From positions 1 to 64,000 of IMG/VR virus record IMGVR_UViG_3300025674_000028: a stretch of 64,000 nt of DNA, one strand, 5' to 3'. This DNA is from a virus. Shown here in pieces: positions 3,407 through 36,011 of this stretch; the stretch's first letter is position 1; each line of letters opens with the position of its first letter. The notes below the pieces were generated by a model that ran no database searches, had not been told where the DNA came from, and saw only the letters and a program-made list of their open reading frames with translations. Made by a program: the position numbers and the translations under genes.

Positions 3407-4345
3407 ATGGACCACATCAGGTTTCAACTTGCCACAGGCAGTGTATGGATCACAACCGCTCAGGCGTGTGAACACATTAACGTCTCGCGCCAGGCTCTCA
3501 AGCAGTTGATTGACAGAGGTGTCATGCGTGCTCGTCGCCAAGACGACCGTAAGAACTATATCTTCCGTGACGACGTGTTTTATGTCTACCAGCAGCGTCA
3601 GCAGGCTCACGATGATAACAACCAAAGGGCCAGTTATGAAACACTGGTAGAACGTGGGATTTTTCCTGAATCGTTAGAGACCGCAAATGGATTTGATCTG
3701 ACGACGTGGGCTCAAAACAATCAATCGGAACTGCTGCGCTCCCGACTTGCGATCCCACCGACGCTGCCATCTTTAAATGAAGCTGGCGAAAAGGTAGATG
3801 AGCCCGTCACGCTGGCATTGTTGGCGCGACGCCTGCTGCGCGCCGAACAAGCCCTTAATACAGTTCTTGCGGGGCAATCGATCAACCCCATTCTATCGAA
3901 ACTCTCTCCGACAGACATCGCGTCGATCATACGTCGCACTAAGGCAGCGCTTCGACTTGGGCTTCACAGCGCGCAGGACATCACAAGCCTGTGCCAGCTA
4001 TATCTTCGACTAGACGCACACCACATGACGCAAATCAGTCAGTTTCCTGTGACGCACCCTGACATGGCTGCGGAAGTGTTAGAGGGCGGCGAAGTGGCGT
4101 ATCAGAGTTTGTACCGCATTGGTGATTACCTTATTGCTGCGGCTAGCCAATTGCCCGGCGCGGGACTGAAGGGCTCTGTGCACAATCGCACTCTGGACAT
4201 CGCCAGACAGGTAAAAAAAATCTTGTCGAAGCTGTGCTCTAATCAAGCAGGGATTGACTTCTTACTGCGTCAGGACGCCGGCCACTACTTGCCGGTCCCC
4301 TTAACTGAAATTGACCGATACATTTTGAATCAGGTCACGGGGTAA
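3407..4345 (+). CDS. HTH (MerR/excisionase-like) DNA-binding regulator
   Basis: 312 residues. The ATG is preceded by AAGGAG at 6 nt. Residues 13-60 (WITTAQACEHINVSRQAL, then IDRGVMRAR and YIFRDDV) have the pattern of a winged HTH of the MerR/HTH_17 type: helix-turn-helix, then a short beta wing after a basic turn. The remaining 250 residues are helical and match no family I know. It diverges from the virion gene 2432-3394 and ends directly in a double-hairpin terminator shared with the convergent gene 4404-4652. A role in switching transcription of the neighbouring island or the left virion genes is plausible but inferred. Confidence 0.8.
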   Translation: MDHIRFQLATGSVWITTAQACEHINVSRQALKQLIDRGVMRARRQDDRKNYIFRDDVFYVYQQRQQAHDDNNQRASYETLVERGIFPESLETANGFDLTTWAQNNQSELLRSRLAIPPTLPSLNEAGEKVDEPVTLALLARRLLRAEQALNTVLAGQSINPILSKLSPTDIASIIRRTKAALRLGLHSAQDITSLCQLYLRLDAHHMTQISQFPVTHPDMAAEVLEGGEVAYQSLYRIGDYLIAAASQLPGAGLKGSVHNRTLDIARQVKKILSKLCSNQAGIDFLLRQDAGHYLPVPLTEIDRYILNQVTG

Positions 4346-4399
4346 AAAAAAACCTCAACCCCCAGGACGGGGGGAGGTGCCTCCAGGACGGAGGCCTTT
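4344..4399. terminator. Bidirectional tandem-hairpin terminator (AGGAC/GUCCU loops)
   Basis: It lies between convergent genes. A run of nine A (4344-4352, overlapping the TAA of the plus gene) is followed by hairpin 4353-4377 (CCTC..CCCCC, loop AGGAC, GGGGG.GAGG) and hairpin 4379-4395 (GCCTCC, loop AGGAC, GGAGGC), then CTTT. Read on the minus strand, two GUCCU-loop hairpins end in nine U, a strong terminator for 4404-4652. On the plus strand the short CTTT makes a weaker one. Confidence 0.85.
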
Positions 4400-4403
4400 G
4401 ATC

Positions 4404-4652
4404 CTACAAGAGGCTTTTAGCCTCCCTGTAGGAGTTTGACAGCGCGCCATACAGCGCGCTGTCAAACCCGGCGCGAGCCGGGCTGACGACGACGTCGTAC
4501 ACGTAGTTGGTGGCCATCAGCCACCAACTACCGGAAAGGAGGCCCCACTGGACCTCCTTTCCGTCGACGAGGAGGATGACTCCATCCTCCCCGTCAAGGA
4601 CAAATTCGAAAACCTGGTCTCGCCAAAATTTTTTCTCAATGACCTTGCGCAT
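4404..4652 (-). CDS. Small protein encoded by a hairpin-saturated sequence
   Basis: 82 residues, unknown. The ATG at 4652 has GGAG at 7 nt and lies inside the leader RNA hairpin 4647-4669. The protein looks globular and beta-rich (FEFVLDGEDGVILLVDGKEV), with no signal or motif recognised. Most of the coding sequence is a chain of perfect inverted repeats: 4403-4432, 4435-4466 (13 bp), 4467-4482 (6 bp, GCGA loop on plus), 4503-4531 (12 bp), 4532-4563 (11 bp) and 4566-4595. The last hairpin on the transcript includes the stop codon. It could instead be a structured RNA with an incidental frame, but the good start region and sensible protein favour a real gene. Confidence 0.65.
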   Translation of the reverse strand: MRKVIEKKFWRDQVFEFVLDGEDGVILLVDGKEVQWGLLSGSWWLMATNYVYDVVVSPARAGFDSALYGALSNSYREAKSLL

Positions 4653-4860
4653 ATCATCTCCTCATGCGCTATGCAGTGCCTTTGTGTCAGGCGCACTGCT
4701 TGTTCCTGTGAGTTGCCAGCACAACCATTGTGCTTTCAACAACTCGGCGCCTTCTCGGCATGGAGGATCTGCTTCCTCTGGGCTCACCACTTGCGGTAGG
4801 TGACACCGGCCTAGTGAATCCATGCAGGTCTTCGCATGGAATTGGTCTGACGCATTTGTG
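4647..4860 (-). promoter_or_regulatory. Structured leader RNA, copy A
   Basis: This 5' leader resembles the ones before 6462 and 7650. Three stems are visible in the minus-strand transcript. The first, 4647-4669, is GCGCAT / 11-nt loop with GGAG / ATGCGC, so the start codon is in the stem. The second, 4673-4699, pairs GCAGTGC with GCACTGC. The third, 4710-4745, has GAGTTG:CAACTC outside AGCACAA:TTGTGCT. Further upstream, similarity to copy D continues for over 100 nt (including TCACC:GGTGA near 4780-4805). Arms differ between copies while pairing is kept, so RNA structure is under selection. The leader probably controls translation of 4404-4652. Confidence 0.75.
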
Positions 4861-5004
4861 GTCTTTGCCGCAGCATTTCCACTCTAGGCCATGCGTGGCC
4901 ATCCCAGAGAGCATTGCACTCTTCTGAGTCCCCCTACATCCGGGGTCGGGTTTGTCCGTCTTCACCCTCGGACTCCCTAGGAAAGGGAGTGCTGGCGGCA
5001 CTCC
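4861..5004 (-). other. Non-coding spacer with two mutually exclusive hairpins at its edge
   Basis: Between the leader of 4404-4652 and the end of 4977-5363. Hairpin 4972-4990 (ACTCCCT / loop / AGGGAGT) and hairpin 4986-5004 (GGAGTGC / loop / GCACTCC) share bases 4986-4990, so only one can form. They overlap the stop codon of the upstream gene. No U-run follows, so this is not an ordinary terminator. A switch or RNA-processing site between the two genes is possible. Confidence 0.4.
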
Positions 5005-5363
5005 GAGATCAGACGAACAACAGCCAGGGCGAACCCTGGGTAGTTGCCGATTGTCTCGTAGTGCACGCCATACGAGGGTGCGCCGGTTTTGAAACCGAGC
5101 GCGACGGCTTTCGGCGTGGTGTCGTAGACGCACACGTCCCAGACCCAACCTTTTTCACGTTGGATCCGGATGACCGTGGCGCATCCGCTCTCGCCGGCCT
5201 GCCCAATGAGCCACGTGTTTTTCACGTTTCTCACTGGTTTGCACTTCCATCCACTCATGAACGGAGCGCTGGCCCGGTTGTCGAGCGTCCACCCTCCGCC
5301 CCAGAGCAAGCTGGGACAAAGTCGGTTCGACACTTTCACGCCGCGCAACATAGGCTTGAACAT
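4977..5363 (-). CDS. Unknown 128-residue island protein
   Basis: The ATG at 5363 has an ideal AGGAGG at 6 nt. The protein is cysteine- and tryptophan-containing and beta-rich (WTLDNRASAPFMSGWKC, TWLIGQAGESGCATVIRIQ), with an aromatic GWVWDVCVYDT segment. No family is recognised. It lacks the leader RNA shared by the other three island genes, and instead has its own upstream promoter-like motif at 5507. Short inverted repeats are frequent in its coding sequence too, for example CCAGGG/cgaa/CCCTGG at 5024-5039 and CTCGT..ACGAG near 5055-5077, but less densely than in its neighbours. Confidence 0.8.
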   Translation of the reverse strand: MFKPMLRGVKVSNRLCPSLLWGGGWTLDNRASAPFMSGWKCKPVRNVKNTWLIGQAGESGCATVIRIQREKGWVWDVCVYDTTPKAVALGFKTGAPSYGVHYETIGNYPGFALAVVRLISECRQHSLS

Positions 5364-5596
5364 AGTTCACCTCCTATTGTCACACTGTGTTACCCCACCG
5401 GGGACAGTCTCGGCTGGAGACTGACTCGACAGCACACACTTTGCCGAAGTGTGTGACACGGGACCTGCACTTCTTTTGGAGAATAAAGAAGTATGAGATC
5501 ATAATACTTATGTCCGTAAATAGCCGATTTTGTTAGGGTTTTTGAGGTCATAATGTATGGCCATTTGCCGTGGTTTTGAAGGGCTGACGAGGGGGT
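5364..5596 (-). promoter_or_regulatory. 5' region of 4977-5363 with promoter-like motif at 5507
   Basis: No gene seen. On the minus strand GGACATAAG (5515-5507), preceded by an AT-rich GCTATTTAC, matches the core of the motif found at 7866, 7946 and 35173. The second half is degenerate here (no TTGACC). Downstream are several small hairpins, the best being CACACACTT/tgccg/AAGTGTGTG near 5434-5456 and CAGTCTC/ggctg/GAGACTG near 5404-5422. The latter lies about 40 nt before the start codon. I read this as a promoter plus structured 5' UTR. Confidence 0.5.
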
Positions 5597-5654
5597 AAAA
5601 AAAACGCTCAACCCCAGGACGGGGGAGCGGCCCAGCAGGACGCAGGGGCTTTTT
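5597..5654. terminator. Second bidirectional tandem-hairpin terminator (AGGAC loops)
   Basis: An eight-A run (5597-5604) is followed by hairpin 5605-5629 (CGCTC..CCCC, loop AGGAC, GGGG.GAGCG), hairpin 5630-5649 (GCCC.GC, loop AGGAC, GC.GGGGC) and five T (5650-5654). The architecture and pentaloops are the same as at 4344-4399. On the minus strand it terminates the pentapeptide gene 8 nt downstream of its stop. On the plus strand it would block antisense read-through. Confidence 0.85.
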
Positions 5655-5661
5655 GACTCGA

Positions 5662-6462
5662 TCACGTCATCGGTCCGATGTCGTGATCATAGATTTCGGC
5701 GCCGTCGAGGTGAGCGCCGTCTAGGTCGGCACCTACGAGTAGAGCGCCGGTGAGGTCTGCACGGCGGAGGATGGCGCCTCTAAGGATTGCATAGGGAAGG
5801 AAAGAGTTCGACAAGTCGGCGCCCGTGAGGTCAGCGCCGGTGAGGTCGGCGCATGTGAGGTGGGCGCCGTCGAGGTCGGCGCAGCGCAGGTCAGCCCCCG
5901 TGAGGTTTGCGTTGGAGAGGTTTGCCCCCGCCCGCTTACCTTCTAGGGCGAGATCAGCGCCGCACAGGTCGGCGCAGCGCAGGTCGGCGCAGCGCAGGTC
6001 GGCGCCGGTGAGCTTTGCCTCGCGCAGGTCGGCGCAGCGCAGGTCGGCGCCGGTGAGGTCGGCGCCAGTGAGATTGGCGCCGTCGAGGATGGCGCTAGTG
6101 AGGTTGGCGCCGGTGAGGTTGGCGTCGGTGAAGTCGGCTTTGTCGAACACTTCGACCTCCGTGAGGATGGCGCCGGTGAGGTTGGCGCCCCTGAGGTCGA
6201 CCTCTGTGAAGATGGCGCCGGTGAGGTTGGCGCCGGTGAGGTTGGCGCACCGGAGATAAGAGCCGATGAGAACGGCGTTTGTAAGGTTGGCGCCGGTGAG
6301 GTTGGCGAGAGCGAGGTTGACGCCGGTGAGGATAGCGCTGGTGAGGTTGGCGCCCGTGAGGTCGGCGCCCGTGAGGTCGGCGCCGGTGAAGTCGGCGCCG
6401 GTAAAGTCGATGCCGGCCAGGTGCTGGCCGGCGCGGTCGACACCTTGAAAATTTGTGCGCAT
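5662..6462 (-). CDS. Pentapeptide-repeat protein
   Basis: 266 residues made almost wholly of A(D/N)LTG-type pentapeptides ([18 protein letters not shown]), the repeats of a right-handed quadrilateral beta-helix. The regular pattern is broken near residues 105-112 ([10 protein letters not shown]) and 173-181 (ALEGKRAGA). Loops of this kind break the helix in the Qnr group of gyrase-binding pentapeptide proteins. That family includes DNA mimics acting on topoisomerases, so a host-directed anti-gyrase or DNA-mimic role is a reasonable guess, not shown. The ATG at 6462 lies in the leader RNA hairpin 6457-6479. A tandem terminator follows 8 nt after the stop. The repeated GGCGCC in the DNA comes from the protein repeat and is not a CRISPR. 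Confidence 0.92.
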
Positions 6463-6551
6463 ATCATCTCCTTATGCGCTATGCAACACCTTTGTGGCAG
6501 GCGTGTCGCTTACTCCCATGGGTTGCCAGCACAGCTATTGTGCGGGCAACG
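6457..6551 (-). promoter_or_regulatory. Structured leader RNA, copy C (short)
   Basis: Leader before the pentapeptide gene. Stem 6457-6479 is GCGCAT / loop with GGAG / ATGCGC. Stem 6483-6509 is GCAACACC : GGCGTGTCGC, with one bulge and a pair that works only as G-U on the minus transcript. Stem 6522-6550 is GTTGCC:GGCAAC around GCACA:TGTGC. It is shorter than copies A and D and begins immediately downstream of a rho-independent terminator, so it is either transcribed by read-through or cut from a longer RNA. Confidence 0.75.
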
Positions 6552-6580
6552 GCAAAAAAATATACGCAGCCGGCGTATGC
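6552..6580 (-). terminator. Rho-independent terminator after gene 6649-7650
   Basis: On the minus strand ATACGC / CGGCT / GCGTAT (6578-6562) is followed by A and a seven-T run (6560-6554). It lies about 70 nt after the stop of 6649-7650 and directly before leader copy C. A terminator abutting a structured leader could act as an attenuator for the pentapeptide gene. Confidence 0.8.
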
Positions 6581-6648
6581 GGGTCACTCTCTTCCGGAGA
6601 ATGACAACGGGCGTATGTTTAACGACCTCGCCAGGTCGGGGCCGCGGC

Positions 6649-7650
6649 TCAATCCGTATGGATCACAACCGTGACCCGGTCGAGCCCGTGGACGCTCGAC
6701 CGGGTCGCGACAAGTTTCCCGTCGTGCAGCAGGCGCTGCACGCGGGAATCCCCGTCCACGCGGAAGGTTCCCCAGGCCCCGAGGCCCCAAACCTCAAGGG
6801 CCTCGAGGGTGTGTAGGGGGCTCCGGCGCATGATGCGCCAGAGGAGCGACGGAGTTGGAGAGGAGGCGAAATCCTCCATCTCCATCTCCGTCATCGGAGC
6901 GTCTTCTGGGAAATAGTAAGAGGGAGGGTTTTTTGCCCCCCATCCCCTCACGAGTTCCACTAACCGACGTTTTCTGTCGGCTCCGATCTCCTGCCCCTCT
7001 GCCCCCGCTAGGAGGAACGGCAGACGCTCACAGACTGCCTGCCGTTCGAGGCCCAAAGCGCGGGCCTCCTTTTCGGCAGAGAGCCGCTTTGTTTCCAAAG
7101 CGGCTCTCTGCCGAGCCTCCCTCTCGCGGCGCCTTAGACGAGGCCACACCTCGCCTAAGGAGAATTGAGCGCTGAAGACTCTCCCTTGGCGCTCTCGAAA
7201 CGCCCGCCACCACTCATGGTGGTATGGGTCACGCCGGAACGAGTCATCGTCATCGACCCATTCCCCGTAACTGCATGAGAGGTCGTCGGCCGCCTCCACT
7301 GCCTCAAAGAGGCAGTGGTACTCTTGCTCCAGCGTCTGCTGAAGCAAGAGTACGTAGGCGCTCCGCATGGAGCGCCAAGGGAAACCTGTCGGGCGGGCGG
7401 CGAGGTCTCCGTCCGCCCACTCGGCCAGGGCGCGATGCGCCTCGCACGTCTGCCGGCCCCACCCTGTGAGGCCGGAGATGTACGCGAGGGTGACCTCGCC
7501 AGCGCCGCCCGCTACGGCGCTGTTGTAGAGAGACTGCAACGCCTTGTCGCGCTCCAGCCCCTCCTCCCGACCCCCCGCGATGAAGCGGGCCTTTTCGATG
7601 AAGAGGTTGGTGTTGTTGGCGGCGTTGTTGGTGGGGTCCATCTTGCTCAT
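6649..7650 (-). CDS. Unknown 333-residue protein in a hairpin-saturated, GC-rich gene
   Basis: The ATG at 7650 has GGAG at 6 nt and pairs into leader hairpin 7645-7667. The frame stays open 67 codons further upstream through the leader, but without a good ribosome site. Residues 48-78 (TLAYISGLTGWGRQTCEAH) could form a helix-turn-helix. Residues 180-215 are a highly charged coiled coil (RLRRREREARQRAALETKR), and a beta-rich C-terminus follows. No family is recognised. The coding sequence is full of perfect inverted repeats, including 7074-7113 (17 bp), 6673-6706 (12 bp), 6848-6892 (16 bp, nested), 7296-7318 (10 bp) and 7357-7376 (8 bp). GC is visibly higher than in neighbouring phage genes, which suggests acquisition. 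Confidence 0.75.
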   Translation of the reverse strand: MSKMDPTNNAANNTNLFIEKARFIAGGREEGLERDKALQSLYNSAVAGGAGEVTLAYISGLTGWGRQTCEAHRALAEWADGDLAARPTGFPWRSMRSAYVLLLQQTLEQEYHCLFEAVEAADDLSCSYGEWVDDDDSFRRDPYHHEWWRAFRERQGRVFSAQFSLGEVWPRLRRREREARQRAALETKRLSAEKEARALGLERQAVCERLPFLLAGAEGQEIGADRKRRLVELVRGWGAKNPPSYYFPEDAPMTEMEMEDFASSPTPSLLWRIMRRSPLHTLEALEVWGLGAWGTFRVDGDSRVQRLLHDGKLVATRSSVHGLDRVTVVIHTD

Positions 7651-7850
7651 GTCATCTCCATATGAGCAATGCAACACCTTTGTATCAGGCGTGTCGCTTG
7701 TACCTGTGAGTTGCCAGCACAACCATTGTGCTTCCAACAACTCGGTGCCTTCTCGGCATGGAGGATCTGCTCCCTCTAGGCTCACCACTTGAAGCAGGTG
7801 ACGCTTGCCCAGTGAATCCATGCAGGTCTTTGCGTGGAATTTGACCGTCA
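7645..7850 (-). promoter_or_regulatory. Structured leader RNA, copy D
   Basis: Longest copy together with A; the two align for about 190 nt. Stems: 7645-7667, GCTCAT / loop with GGAG / ATGAGC, where the third pair is changed from G-C in A and C to T-A here on both arms; 7671-7697, GCAACACC:GGCGTGTCGC; and an outer GAGTTG:CAACTC around AGCACAA:TTGTGCT near 7708-7743. An in-frame open reading frame runs through it into 6649-7650. Copy A keeps the same frame with many synonymous differences but ends in TGA before its gene, so a leader peptide or decayed coding origin cannot be ruled out. Confidence 0.75.
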
Positions 7851-7865
7851 CAATGGAGGTATGGC

Positions 7866-7884
7866 GGTCAACAGTCTTATGTCC
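7866..7884 (-). promoter_or_regulatory. Promoter-like motif driving the island (minus)
   Basis: On the minus strand the sequence is GGACATAAGACTGTTGACC, 17 of 19 identical to the plus-strand motif at 7946. It points toward 6649-7650 and is preceded by AT-rich sequence (GCTATATAC). The two copies form a 19-bp inverted repeat around a 61-bp AT-rich spacer, as expected for divergent promoters or an operator pair. Confidence 0.6.
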
Positions 7885-7941
7885 GTATATAGCTAATTTT
7901 ACACGGTTTTTTTCCTGTCTTTATAAGGCTTAAAAACGCTC

Positions 7942-7969
7942 TTTTGGACATAAGACCATTGACCGCACA
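7942..7969 (+). promoter_or_regulatory. Promoter-like motif driving 8005-8766 (plus)
   Basis: TTTT plus GGACATAAGACCATTGACC plus CGCACA: 28 bp identical to 35169-35196, which also lies before a plus-strand gene. A small hairpin GCAC/atgtc/GTGC (7965-7977) follows. No sigma70 -10 box is evident at the right distance from TTGACC. Because both copies sit about 45 nt before a well-formed ribosome site, I read this as a phage promoter. Confidence 0.65.
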
Positions 7970-8004: not shown

Positions 8005-8766
8005 ATGAACAACGTGGAAGGTGTGACCGTGAGCGATGAGGTAGCCAGCGCAATCATGGGCGCTCAGCCAAGCCAGTCGATGGCGTTTCATGCCAGTCAG
8101 GTCTACCAGCTGATAACAGACCCTGTGAAAATCACAGTCAACAACGGTCCAGACCAGCCGGGCCATATAGAGACGGTGCCACAAATCTCCCTGCTCCAGG
8201 AGATTTACAAAAACAGCGATGAGGTCCTTGCCAGAGTGCGCGAAGGTGTGGGGATTGTCTGCGAGCGACAAGACAAAAACAGCGAGGCAATCTGCAAGGA
8301 AGTGAAGAAGTACTGTGACACTGTGACGCAGACGCTGGCGGCGAACCAAGAGAAGCTGCAGGAAAATCAGACGGCAGGACACAACATCGTCTGCGGGAAG
8401 ATCCACGCCGCAGAAGAGCGCGTGTCGCACTATGCTCGCATGGGCATGGTGGCAAGCTGCGCAGCGGCAGTGGCAGCGCTTGCGGGCATGTTCTTCAGTC
8501 AGCGGTCTCCGTCTGCTCACGCCCCGCATTTCGCGCCACAGATGCACGATCAGCAGATGCACGCACAGCGAGCAAGGGAGCGGGCGCTGGCAGACAAGGT
8601 GGACAAGCTCACTGAGACGGTCAACCAACTGTCACAGTACGCGCAGGCGCAGCAGCCTGTCTTTGCTGCGCTTCAGCATCAGATGATTCGCCCAACCACT
8701 GTGTCGGCGGTCAACATCCCAACGCCTGCCGCAGCACAGACGGGCGACGCACCTTTGTTTGGCTAA
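8005..8766 (+). CDS. Unknown protein with one membrane segment and coiled coil
   Basis: 253 residues. The ATG at 8005 has AAGGAGA at 5 nt; an upstream in-frame ATG at 7969 falls at the end of the promoter motif and is less likely. Residues 60-150 are helical and charged. A single transmembrane helix lies near residues 147-168 (MGMVASCAAAVAALAGMFF), followed by a His/Met/Gln-rich stretch and a C-terminal coiled coil (ALADKVDKLTETVNQLSQY). The gene is monocistronic, driven by the motif at 7942. Its TAA overlaps the TAG of the convergent terminase gene. It could be an early membrane protein; function unknown. Confidence 0.85.
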   Translation: MNNVEGVTVSDEVASAIMGAQPSQSMAFHASQVYQLITDPVKITVNNGPDQPGHIETVPQISLLQEIYKNSDEVLARVREGVGIVCERQDKNSEAICKEVKKYCDTVTQTLAANQEKLQENQTAGHNIVCGKIHAAEERVSHYARMGMVASCAAAVAALAGMFFSQRSPSAHAPHFAPQMHDQQMHAQRARERALADKVDKLTETVNQLSQYAQAQQPVFAALQHQMIRPTTVSAVNIPTPAAAQTGDAPLFG

Positions 8767-10676
8767 CTGTTGGCAAACTCTGCCAGCTCCATGTTTCGCC
8801 ACATCTTGGCTGACATGAGGTAGAGCAGGCTGTGAAAGGCGTCGTCTGGGTCTGTGTGGTTGTACTGCATCTGACGCAGCTTTGGTGAGCGATCGGCGTA
8901 GATGGTGAGGATATCCTGGGCGAAGCCTCCATCTAAGCGTGGAGGCCCGTCCATGATTTCCCATGAGGGCAACACCACGCGTCGATTTTTTAGCTGATTA
9001 AAGATCTTGGCCATCCACCGAGTCTTGTTGCATTGAAACTGGTTGCTTGTTGGATCCCAACTCATGATGGCTGATTGATTGGTGTATCGCATAGGAATGA
9101 AGCGACGCATGCCGTCTCGAATTCTTTCGCGCACGCCATCGATCATGCCCCAGCCAAAACCTGCATCGCAAAAGCAGATGTCAACGTGATTGGCTTCCAT
9201 GAGGTACGAAATCTCATCCCACAGGAACCGGGGGTCCGCTTCAACGCCCATGTACCTGCGCATAAAGAACACTTGGAGGACACTGCCCACCTCGGGGACG
9301 TGGTTGACGTACCCCATGCTCACGACAGTAAACGCGCCGTCGCCTGTACCCTCACCCCAGTCAATCCCCATGAAGACATCCCACGCAGGGTCAGCAAGCA
9401 CCTCTTTTGGCGCAAGGCGCTCTAGGGACGTGATGCCTGGGTGGCACAGCCTGATCAGCTCCTCTCGGCTTAGCGGCTTCTTTCCGCTGTCCCACGACAC
9501 GCCAAAGATCTCATTCATCTTTGACGCTTCAGACGCTGTGGGGTCATTGACATCTTGGTAGAAAGCCAGCCAACGCTCAGCGAAGCGGTCCCTGTCATAA
9601 ATTGATGTGTATGGCATCAAGCAGCGGCTGAGATGAAATCCTTCAAAGTCGCTGTCTAAGGCTCCCGTCCGTACCCAGTTGCAATGCTTGGACAAGGGAT
9701 TGATGGCGCGTCCGCATTTGATGCACAGCAGCCCCTTACGGCCAATCATGCGATCTACTTCATTGGGATTTTGGGGCGGAAAGTTAGGGTGGTTGCATCG
9801 GTCGCAAGGAATCAGCCACAGGTTCTTAGTTGAGCGCTTAGACCAGATTTGCTCAATGGGATTGTCAAAGGTCAGTGGCGTGCCACTGAATAGCGTGATG
9901 GCACCAAAGGGCAACTCACTGTTGTTGAGCGTGGCGGTGATGACGGGAATGTTGGCCATGACGAAATCCTGAATCTCATCAATGGCGAGCACGTCGGCCG
10001 CGATGCCGCGAACACGGTTGGCGTTTAGGTGCGCCGAGCGCATGACGATGCGGCTGTTGTTGCGTTTGAGTCGTTTGAAGAAGCGGTTGTAGTTGACGAA
10101 CCCACCGACAAACTGCTTGAGCCTCGGTGAGATGCGCAGCGTGTTGTCGACGCGCTCATCAGCAAACTCCTGCATGTTAAGTCCTGCGCTTGTCACGTAC
10201 AGCGCGCAGATGTTTGAGAGCATGCTGATGAACGTCCACAGCTTATTGCCAAGGCCAGTGGATTTTTCGGTCTGACGTGCGGCCTTGACCAGCGTCTTCC
10301 TTGCCAGCCGCGTAGACGCCTCGTCACCTCCTAAAGCGACAATACGCTTCTTTGTGTATTCGCTGTCGTAGATGGCCTTTTGCCACGGTCGCAGGTGCAG
10401 GCTGATGCTCTTTCCCATCGGGTTGCTGCGATCTGGCGCGTCAAAGTTAATCCGGTACTGCACAAACTCGCTTGGCAGCTCCGGCTGCGTAAACGCTCCG
10501 GGTCTCAGGCGTTTGGATGCGCGCTCCTGTGCCCACTGTACAGCACGGACATAAGCCTCTTGCTCGTCCCGCACATCGCTGCCCCGATCAAAGGGTACGC
10601 CTGTGCGCGGATCTATCACTTTTGTCTCTACGCCTACGGGTATAGAGCTCTGTACATTAACCAATGGAGAAGTCAT
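8763..10676 (-). CDS. Terminase large subunit (GpA-like ATPase-nuclease)
   Basis: 637 residues. The ATPase packages DNA into the prohead and the nuclease cuts concatemers. Residues 125-150 hold a Walker A variant, RQTEKST, with Glu in place of the usual Gly before Lys. VLAIDEIQD near residue 230 is Walker B with the catalytic Glu, and LFSGTP is motif III. A four-cysteine zinc ribbon (CDRC...CIKC) at about 292-326 is typical of GpA-type enzymes. The nuclease begins at GIDWGEGTGDG (about 436), with further acidic residues at FCDAGFG and DPDDAFHS. The start codon overlaps that of the divergent plus gene (CATG at 10674-10677) and the ribosome site is weak. The stop overlaps the convergent gene 8005-8766. 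Confidence 0.93.
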   Translation of the reverse strand: MTSPLVNVQSSIPVGVETKVIDPRTGVPFDRGSDVRDEQEAYVRAVQWAQERASKRLRPGAFTQPELPSEFVQYRINFDAPDRSNPMGKSISLHLRPWQKAIYDSEYTKKRIVALGGDEASTRLARKTLVKAARQTEKSTGLGNKLWTFISMLSNICALYVTSAGLNMQEFADERVDNTLRISPRLKQFVGGFVNYNRFFKRLKRNNSRIVMRSAHLNANRVRGIAADVLAIDEIQDFVMANIPVITATLNNSELPFGAITLFSGTPLTFDNPIEQIWSKRSTKNLWLIPCDRCNHPNFPPQNPNEVDRMIGRKGLLCIKCGRAINPLSKHCNWVRTGALDSDFEGFHLSRCLMPYTSIYDRDRFAERWLAFYQDVNDPTASEASKMNEIFGVSWDSGKKPLSREELIRLCHPGITSLERLAPKEVLADPAWDVFMGIDWGEGTGDGAFTVVSMGYVNHVPEVGSVLQVFFMRRYMGVEADPRFLWDEISYLMEANHVDICFCDAGFGWGMIDGVRERIRDGMRRFIPMRYTNQSAIMSWDPTSNQFQCNKTRWMAKIFNQLKNRRVVLPSWEIMDGPPRLDGGFAQDILTIYADRSPKLRQMQYNHTDPDDAFHSLLYLMSAKMWRNMELAEFANS

Positions 10677-35092: not shown

Positions 35093-35240
35093 CGTTTTTT
35101 GGCTCCGAATTAGACGTCGTGCGGCAGCCCATCGCAGGCTTACAGATCAGTAGAGTACACGAAACTGTTTTTGGACATAAGACCATTGACCGCACACGCC
35201 GACCTGCGTGTGCACTTTGTAAACCACAGAGGAGAAGACA
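35093..35240 (+). promoter_or_regulatory. Divergent intergenic region with the 28-bp promoter-like motif
   Basis: Plus-strand GGACATAAGACCATTGACC at 35173-35191, with TTTT before and CGCACA after, is identical over 35169-35196 to 7942-7969. An 8-bp hairpin GCACACGC/cgacct/GCGTGTGC (35192-35213) follows, near the expected transcript 5' end, then GAGGAG and the ATG at 35241. No copy of the motif is seen on the minus strand toward 35092, so that operon must use a different promoter. Confidence 0.65.
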
Positions 35241-36011
35241 ATGGCAAACATTACTAATCTCAGCAACCGAGGGCTGAGTGAGGGCACGGGAAGCCAAGTG
35301 GGTACGTTTATCCCAAAGGAAAAGTTGTTTAACCTTTACACACAGACGCTGGCCGAGGCTCACCAGATCCGAGACCAGATGAAGTCTGTACCGCCCTCAG
35401 AGCCTCAATTCAAGGCACTGAAGACGAGATACGACTCGGCGCAGCAACGCCTTGTCGGACTCCAAGTGCTCGTTGACAAGCACGGATGGGCCAACGACTT
35501 GAAGAAGTACGCGGGCATCCAGCTGGCGCACGTCTACAACGTCGGCAGCCGGCAGCCGACAAGCCTCACAAGGTCAACGTCGGCGACCATGGACAGCCTT
35601 CGCCAGAAGTATGTCAACGACCCCGTCCGATGGACGACTGCCTTGCAGGAGGGGGAGCAAGCGATAAGTGAGGGGACTCAGTCTAATCAGCAGACGCTGC
35701 CAACCATCAGCCCGCAACTCCAAGGCACGGTGCAACTGAACAACTCAGGCGCGCAGATGGTCAGCGGCATGAACGCCGACTTTGCGCGACTGGCAAACAG
35801 CCAGCCTGCGCGACTGAACCTGATGCCTCCTGGCGCGGGTCGCGACAGCGTTGACTTCCTGAACATCTTCGTCGTCAATGGTCTTGCAGCAGGCATGACG
35901 TGGGCGGTGAACAAGATGGCGCAGGGTCACAACTTCTTTGCACCGACCACGCCGGCCCACGAGATGCACTTCCAGCAGCACTACTTCAAAACCGTCACCG
36001 GCAACGAGTGA
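35241..36011 (+). CDS. Unknown 256-residue protein, first plus-strand gene
   Basis: The ATG at 35241 has GAGGAG at 6 nt. N-terminal half helical and coiled (LAEAHQIRDQMKSVPPSEPQ), C-terminal half Asn/Gln/Thr-rich with a hydrophobic NIFVVNGLAAGMTWAVNKMA near residue 213. It shares with 8005-8766 the same promoter motif and 5' hairpin, so both may be made at the same, probably early, stage. Ends before a strong hairpin at 36023. No family recognised. Confidence 0.85.
   Translation: MANITNLSNRGLSEGTGSQVGTFIPKEKLFNLYTQTLAEAHQIRDQMKSVPPSEPQFKALKTRYDSAQQRLVGLQVLVDKHGWANDLKKYAGIQLAHVYNVGSRQPTSLTRSTSATMDSLRQKYVNDPVRWTTALQEGEQAISEGTQSNQQTLPTISPQLQGTVQLNNSGAQMVSGMNADFARLANSQPARLNLMPPGAGRDSVDFLNIFVVNGLAAGMTWAVNKMAQGHNFFAPTTPAHEMHFQQHYFKTVTGNE

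Follow-up and report, generated by a model that had tools for sequence, protein, structure and literature searches.

A repeated structured leader and a hairpin-rich gene block in a divergent uncultivated phage

We analysed a 64,000-nucleotide stretch of DNA (the window), bases 1-64000 of the 73,229-bp IMG/VR virus record IMGVR_UViG_3300025674_000028, which derives from an uncultivated phage. Three of its minus-strand genes, here called A, C and D, share a 5′ leader while encoding proteins that have no detectable similarity to one another, as the first-pass annotation of this DNA had reported. The leader is a real structured RNA and is absent from Rfam. Its three copies lie within a block of ~3.5 kb (4339..7860), spanning genes A-D and all leader copies, in which hairpins also fill coding sequence. 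This hairpin island, which the first-pass annotation did not report, is the more surprising of the two features. We tentatively favour a role for the leader in the control of translation initiation, and weigh this reading below against explanations that draw on the island as a whole.

A leader shared by three unrelated genes

Leader copies A (4644..4862) and D (7642..7860) are each 219 nt long and align without gaps at 84% identity, with the last 9 nt of copy A lying inside gene A. Copy C (6456..6550) comprises only the last 95 nt, a core made up of hairpins P6, P7 and P8, and is ~80% identical to either of the other copies. All three are on the minus strand, with alignment column k corresponding to window position 4863-k in A, 6673-k in C and 7861-k in D. 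From P6 through the AUG the common sequence is ungapped in all three copies, and identity stops no more than three codons past the AUG, at the closing point of P8, beyond which the genes are unrelated. Since the leader is conserved and the coding sequences are not related, its copies are either constrained in their own right or share a recent ancestor.

The start-codon hairpin P8 (A 4647-4669, C 6457-6479, D 7645-7667) pairs GCGCAU with AUGCGC in A and C, and GCUCAU with AUGAGC in D, which is one two-sided change. GGAG sits in its 11-nt loop and the AUG in its 3′ arm. The P7 stem-loop (A 4673-4699, C 6483-6509, D 7671-7697) reads GCAGUGC/GCACUGC in A, and both C and D have the arms GCGACAC/GUGUUGC, giving three adjacent two-sided changes and one A-U pair replaced by G-U. 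All changes in P7 are transitions, and its loop, GCCUGNNACAAAG, is nearly invariant. Both hairpins are as the first-pass annotation described them, whereas the third stem, which it had also presented as covarying, is a register shift and does not covary column by column, with GTTGCC in C pairing 3 nt out of register relative to A and D. The pairing common to all three copies is here GUUG/CAAC around a GCACA/UGUGC hairpin. The P6 hairpin spans 4710-4745 in A, 7708-7743 in D and 6522-6550 in C.

A further hairpin with three two-sided changes, P2/P3, is present in A (4784-4808) and D (7782-7806). Its helix (alignment columns 55-58/66-69), which reads CGGU/ACCG in A and AAGC/GCUU in D, had previously been overlooked. 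We placed a ten-helix model on the three-way alignment, in which 57 pairs gave 98.6% of cells paired and seven two-sided changes (four already recognised in the first pass, the other three in the helix at columns 55-58/66-69). Sliding the same model by 1-3 columns left 28-44% of cells paired and 0-1 two-sided changes. The differences between A and D fall at 6 of 8 stem and 0 of 7 loop positions in P2, and at 7 of 14 stem and 1 of 13 loop positions in P7. Taken whole, the leader has a folding z-score of -3.2 in A and -1.6 in D; the cores alone score -2.7 (A), -2.4 (C) and -1.9 (D).

Two pseudoknots are plausible from these pairings. The invariant loop UCACC of the helix at columns 55-58/66-69 is complementary to an invariant downstream GGUGA, with good H-type geometry. 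The second would join CCUG in the P7 loop to an upstream strand that reads CAGG in A (4705-4708) and D (7703-7706) and UGGG in C (6515-6518), where pairing is by wobble. This pairing is possible in all copies, and the changes that support it are wobble changes.

We gauged the covariation against three null models. Neither 300 column shuffles nor 5000 rotations of the substitution pattern ever produced two helices that each carried three or more two-sided changes, whereas a conservative null that held the substituted positions fixed did so in 1.8% of replicates. One such helix appeared in 24-26% of the fixed-position replicates, and so a single helix of this kind is weak evidence and two are better.

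Across the whole record, a 99-position covariance model matched only the A, C and D copies; weaker plus-strand matches correspond to the near-palindromic P6 hairpin. Rfam release 15 gave no gathering-level match in the window, and none overlapping any leader copy at E-values up to 5. DNA patterns for the P7 stem-loop, the start hairpin and the P6 core gave six strict matches in viral contigs, with unrelated surroundings, and the P7 pattern revealed no relative of the leader among genomes of bacteria and archaea. Scoring every fetched match with the model gave a best value of 21 bits, for a match that covered the P7 stem-loop only and came from an alphaproteobacterium; we took it as chance. Searching phages and plasmids with the leaders by blastn likewise returned chance matches only.

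Start sites and the control of translation

The start sites of A, C and D are atypical of the phage's own genes in that the Shine-Dalgarno sequence (SD) is predicted to be open and the AUG buried. Predicted AUG accessibility is 0.00-0.05, placing the three among the five least accessible of 34 SD-led genes in the window, and predicted SD accessibility is 0.67-0.88. Local start-site energy falls below the values of A and C at just one further start, whose call is doubtful. Reduced structure at start sites has been reported for double-stranded DNA (dsDNA) viruses (PMC3072339), and the start sites of A, C and D run in the opposite direction.

We consider it possible, with a confidence that stops short of even, that this structured 5′ leader, duplicated before three different genes, controls translation initiation. 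In its support are the presence of three copies, the conservation of the loops and of helices that carry compensating changes, the absence of a coding signature and the predicted burial of the AUG. P8 would present the SD in its loop and hold the start codon locked in its stem, and a 30S subunit could dock on the open SD but would have to open or trap the hairpin. The upstream stem-loop and pseudoknot domain, with its near-invariant loops, would be the likely docking or recognition site for a phage or host protein, or for the ribosome itself, and the docking factor would set how frequently the lock opens. The outcome would be coordinated translation of A, C and D. A brake seems a more likely direction of control than an enhancer. 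The earlier proposal of a cis-acting translational switch is supported as regards a conserved, structured, non-coding element with no Rfam family and atypical start sites, and this support does not extend to two-state switching; P8 is predicted to be closed from 20 to 50 °C, which makes a simple thermometer unlikely. No intrinsic terminator occurs within the leader, and attenuation by such a terminator is therefore also unlikely.

Several points weigh against a controlling leader. The covariation rests on three paralogous copies from one genome, and since copy C has the same P7 stem as copy D there are few independent events, approximately one divergence event per helix. Copy C does not have the upstream domain. 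We saw no strong alternative pairing of the start hairpin and identified no binding factor. Finally, as the block is rich in hairpins throughout, the start hairpin could belong to a general feature of the locus.

Among known systems, the replicase translational operator of single-stranded RNA phages (MS2 and phage M; PMC3561173) is also a start-codon hairpin in phage mRNA, of about 20 nt, and P8 resembles it in being 23 nt long with the AUG in its 3′ arm. However, that operator is a single-copy, coat-protein-bound element of an RNA genome, whereas here there are three copies in a dsDNA phage with a terminase, and the shared leader has an upstream structured domain, an unrelated sequence and no known ligand. 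The T4 gene 32 operator, a pseudoknot of ~28 nt followed by an unstructured UUAAA-rich stretch (PMC535899, PMC3014915), likewise places a pseudoknot (putative in our case) upstream of the translation start of a dsDNA phage mRNA. It serves one gene; the present leader serves three, has a folded start and, on direct reading of the sequence, contains no UUAAA/UAAA repeats. As the leader lacks defining features of both operators, we file it under neither. The PeSL cassettes of T4-like phages, an early promoter plus stem-loop (Arbiol 2010 and Comeau 2014, via PMC4503421), are similar in being repeated regulatory elements between small cassette-like genes. They differ from the long shared leader described here, which ends in a start codon and has no promoter inside, promoter-like repeats standing only before D and B.

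The hairpin island and alternative explanations

Perfect hairpins (arms of at least 8 bp, loop of 3-15 nt) number 38 in the window, with 18 in one 3.7-kb stretch and 20 across the other 60 kb. Markov controls for this stretch contained 0-2 (~0.5 expected), and across 934 kb of other DNA that was fetched, the richest 3.4 kb held 6. No comparable island was present in the examined stretches of three terminase-related phages (Vibrio D69, Salmonella Arash and Bacillus Andromeda). Within the island the mean local folding z is -4.1 for the transcribed strand and -3.0 for its complement, compared with ~-0.4 (standard deviation, SD, 1.2) elsewhere, and the strand difference is -1.06 (p=0.0002, paired), compared with +0.10 elsewhere. 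Relative to shuffles that keep the protein and codon usage, folding is better by 7.2 standard deviations in the coding sequence of A and by 10.9 in that of D, B and C score -3.1 and -3.4, and 28 other genes have a mean of -1.1 and a minimum of -3.0. These values suggest that the mRNAs of the hairpin-packed genes are under unusual pressure to fold. A gyrA-RNA-like Rfam match at 4417-4489 was rejected, being below the gathering score and corresponding to a perfect hairpin within gene A.

One interpretation, which is conceivable but on the unlikely side, is that the A-D block consists of structure-armoured mRNA cassettes, in which A, C and D carry the folded leader and the synonymous sites of A and D are tuned for back-to-back hairpins. 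We know of no earlier description of a dsDNA phage whose messages are folded over most of their extent.

Global folding of the mRNAs is an unlikely explanation, though the best placed of those that dispense with a dedicated switch. Here whole A-D messages would be selected for compactness, possibly to shield them from RNases of host or defence origin, to slow their decay or to regulate ribosome traffic, and the leader would be their common folded 5′ part, possibly a stabilising or processing element. The synonymous-shuffle scores of A and D and the strand difference within the island speak for it. Yet the leader is kept between copies, loops included, although the coding sequences are unrelated, and in the synonymous-shuffle test the antisense folds as well as the sense.

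The second explanation, which we regard as distinctly unlikely, is mutational. Template switching during replication is reported to generate stems that pair perfectly, as well as compensations of several bases (PMC8794818). Since hairpins occur throughout the block, the compensating changes in the leader could stem from such a process, which makes and repairs perfect hairpins, and would then be by-products that imply no selection for leader function. The excess of hairpins in the 3.7-kb stretch, the perfect short-loop form of the hairpins and the multi-base compensatory changes all resemble this footprint, and wobble-tolerant perfect hairpins carry no strand signal. In contrast with template-switch hairpins, those found here are concentrated in one 3.5-kb block that includes coding sequence. 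Furthermore, some pairs are retained through G-U, and invariant loops next to variable stems point to function. Because it is only within the island that folding favours the transcribed strand over its complement, we consider selection at the RNA level more likely than a purely DNA-level cause. To call the compensations direct evidence of selection for RNA structure, as the first-pass annotation did, is nevertheless too strong for a leader embedded in an island whose coding sequences are themselves tiled with hairpins and in which template switching could have acted.

It is improbable that the leader is a riboswitch-like or antitermination RNA, whose pseudoknotted domain would bind a small molecule or allow RNA polymerase to pass the terminators after D, C and A. 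The putative pseudoknots are compact with fixed loops, the genes are followed by terminators, leader C lies directly after the terminator of D, and GCC-GAGAA-GGC resembles GNRNA boxB loops. The put antitermination RNA of HK022 likewise consists of paired stem-loops in a phage transcript with terminators downstream. However, put sits near promoters, whereas the leader core adjoins the start codon in every copy and is not tied to promoters, leader A follows gene B, and no riboswitch in Rfam is matched. A translated leader peptide coupled to the downstream gene, or a gene remnant, is very improbable: although a frame beginning MDSLG is open over 50 codons in A and D, with a stop just before GGAG in A and C, changes are spread evenly over the codon positions (13/10/13, p=0.22) with no enrichment of synonymous ones, no SD precedes it, copy C has an in-frame stop and Pfam gives no match, leaving a non-coding leader.

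Genomic setting and significance

The phage is a very divergent dsDNA tailed phage with no close relative in the collections scanned. Its terminase large subunit (8763-10676, minus) has distant relatives only, in Vibrio phage D69 and Salmonella phage Arash (~24% identity). A Pfam scan of 10 other large proteins returned one match above cut-off, Baseplate_J, and a PHROGs scan of 10 proteins returned none. Relatives of the terminase, the gene D product and two further proteins were sought in viral contigs, and none was confirmed.

Genes A (4404..4652, 82 aa), B (4977..5363, 128 aa) and D (6649..7650, 333 aa), all on the minus strand, encode proteins of no known family. The coding sequence of A consists almost wholly of hairpins and that of D is tiled with them. 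No homology is detectable among A, B and D, and tblastn with the three gave no matches. A fold comparison with the structure predicted for A (pLDDT 64) gave nothing significant, and the model of D (pLDDT 39) was unusable. Gene C (5662..6462, minus) encodes a 266-aa pentapeptide-repeat protein. For all four genes the annotated frame has the best codon score among the three sense frames. Their third-position GC is 0.75-0.82, compared with 0.58 for the phage, and the block therefore looks acquired or compositionally driven. As a long pentapeptide-repeat protein in this block, the product of C may be that of an acquired accessory gene.

An intrinsic terminator follows gene D (6555..6578, minus), 5 nt before leader C, and stem plus U-run structures can be read after C and A. 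With terminators after D, C and A, these genes look like leader-gene-terminator cassettes, whereas gene B has its own promoter-like element and its own leader, unrelated to the shared one. The earlier suggestion that cassettes acquire the leader as a module fits this layout, but neither a donor nor a relative was found. Downstream of A and C, the regions 4339-4394 and 5591-5646 form two related terminators, each a double hairpin. Their GUCCUG loops, repeated on the minus strand, bear a sub-threshold resemblance to Bacillaceae-1 RNA.

Leader D and gene B are each preceded on the minus strand by a promoter-like repeat (7876..7912 and 5507-5543, respectively) whose core is GGACATAAG. The core occurs eight times against 0.25 expected, at 5507 and 7876 (minus) and at 7946, 10547, 35173, 37994, 40982 and 46421 (plus). 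Three of these (7876, 7946 and 35173) have a longer context in common and stand before genes, while several others are intragenic. Judged by sequence, the core may be that of a phage promoter. The gene at 35241 also has a start that is predicted to be buried (AUG accessibility 0.00, region 35170-35260), here by base pairing between its start-site sequence CAATGG and CCATTG of the promoter-like element.

If the leader does control translation, repeated, covarying leaders before unrelated genes would define a small, testable, co-regulated set in a dsDNA phage in which hardly any gene can be recognised. If the messages are armoured cassettes, these would represent a dsDNA-phage route to mRNAs folded along most of their length, which might evade RNases or RNA-targeting defence, or time translation. 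The locus also shows that compensatory changes alone are no proof of selection where the whole surrounding sequence is rich in hairpins. The island raises the question of whether entire coding sequences can be driven into secondary structure by selection or by a mutation process that makes hairpins, and which of these operates here. As leader, coding-sequence and strand effects are separable at this locus, it permits a direct test.

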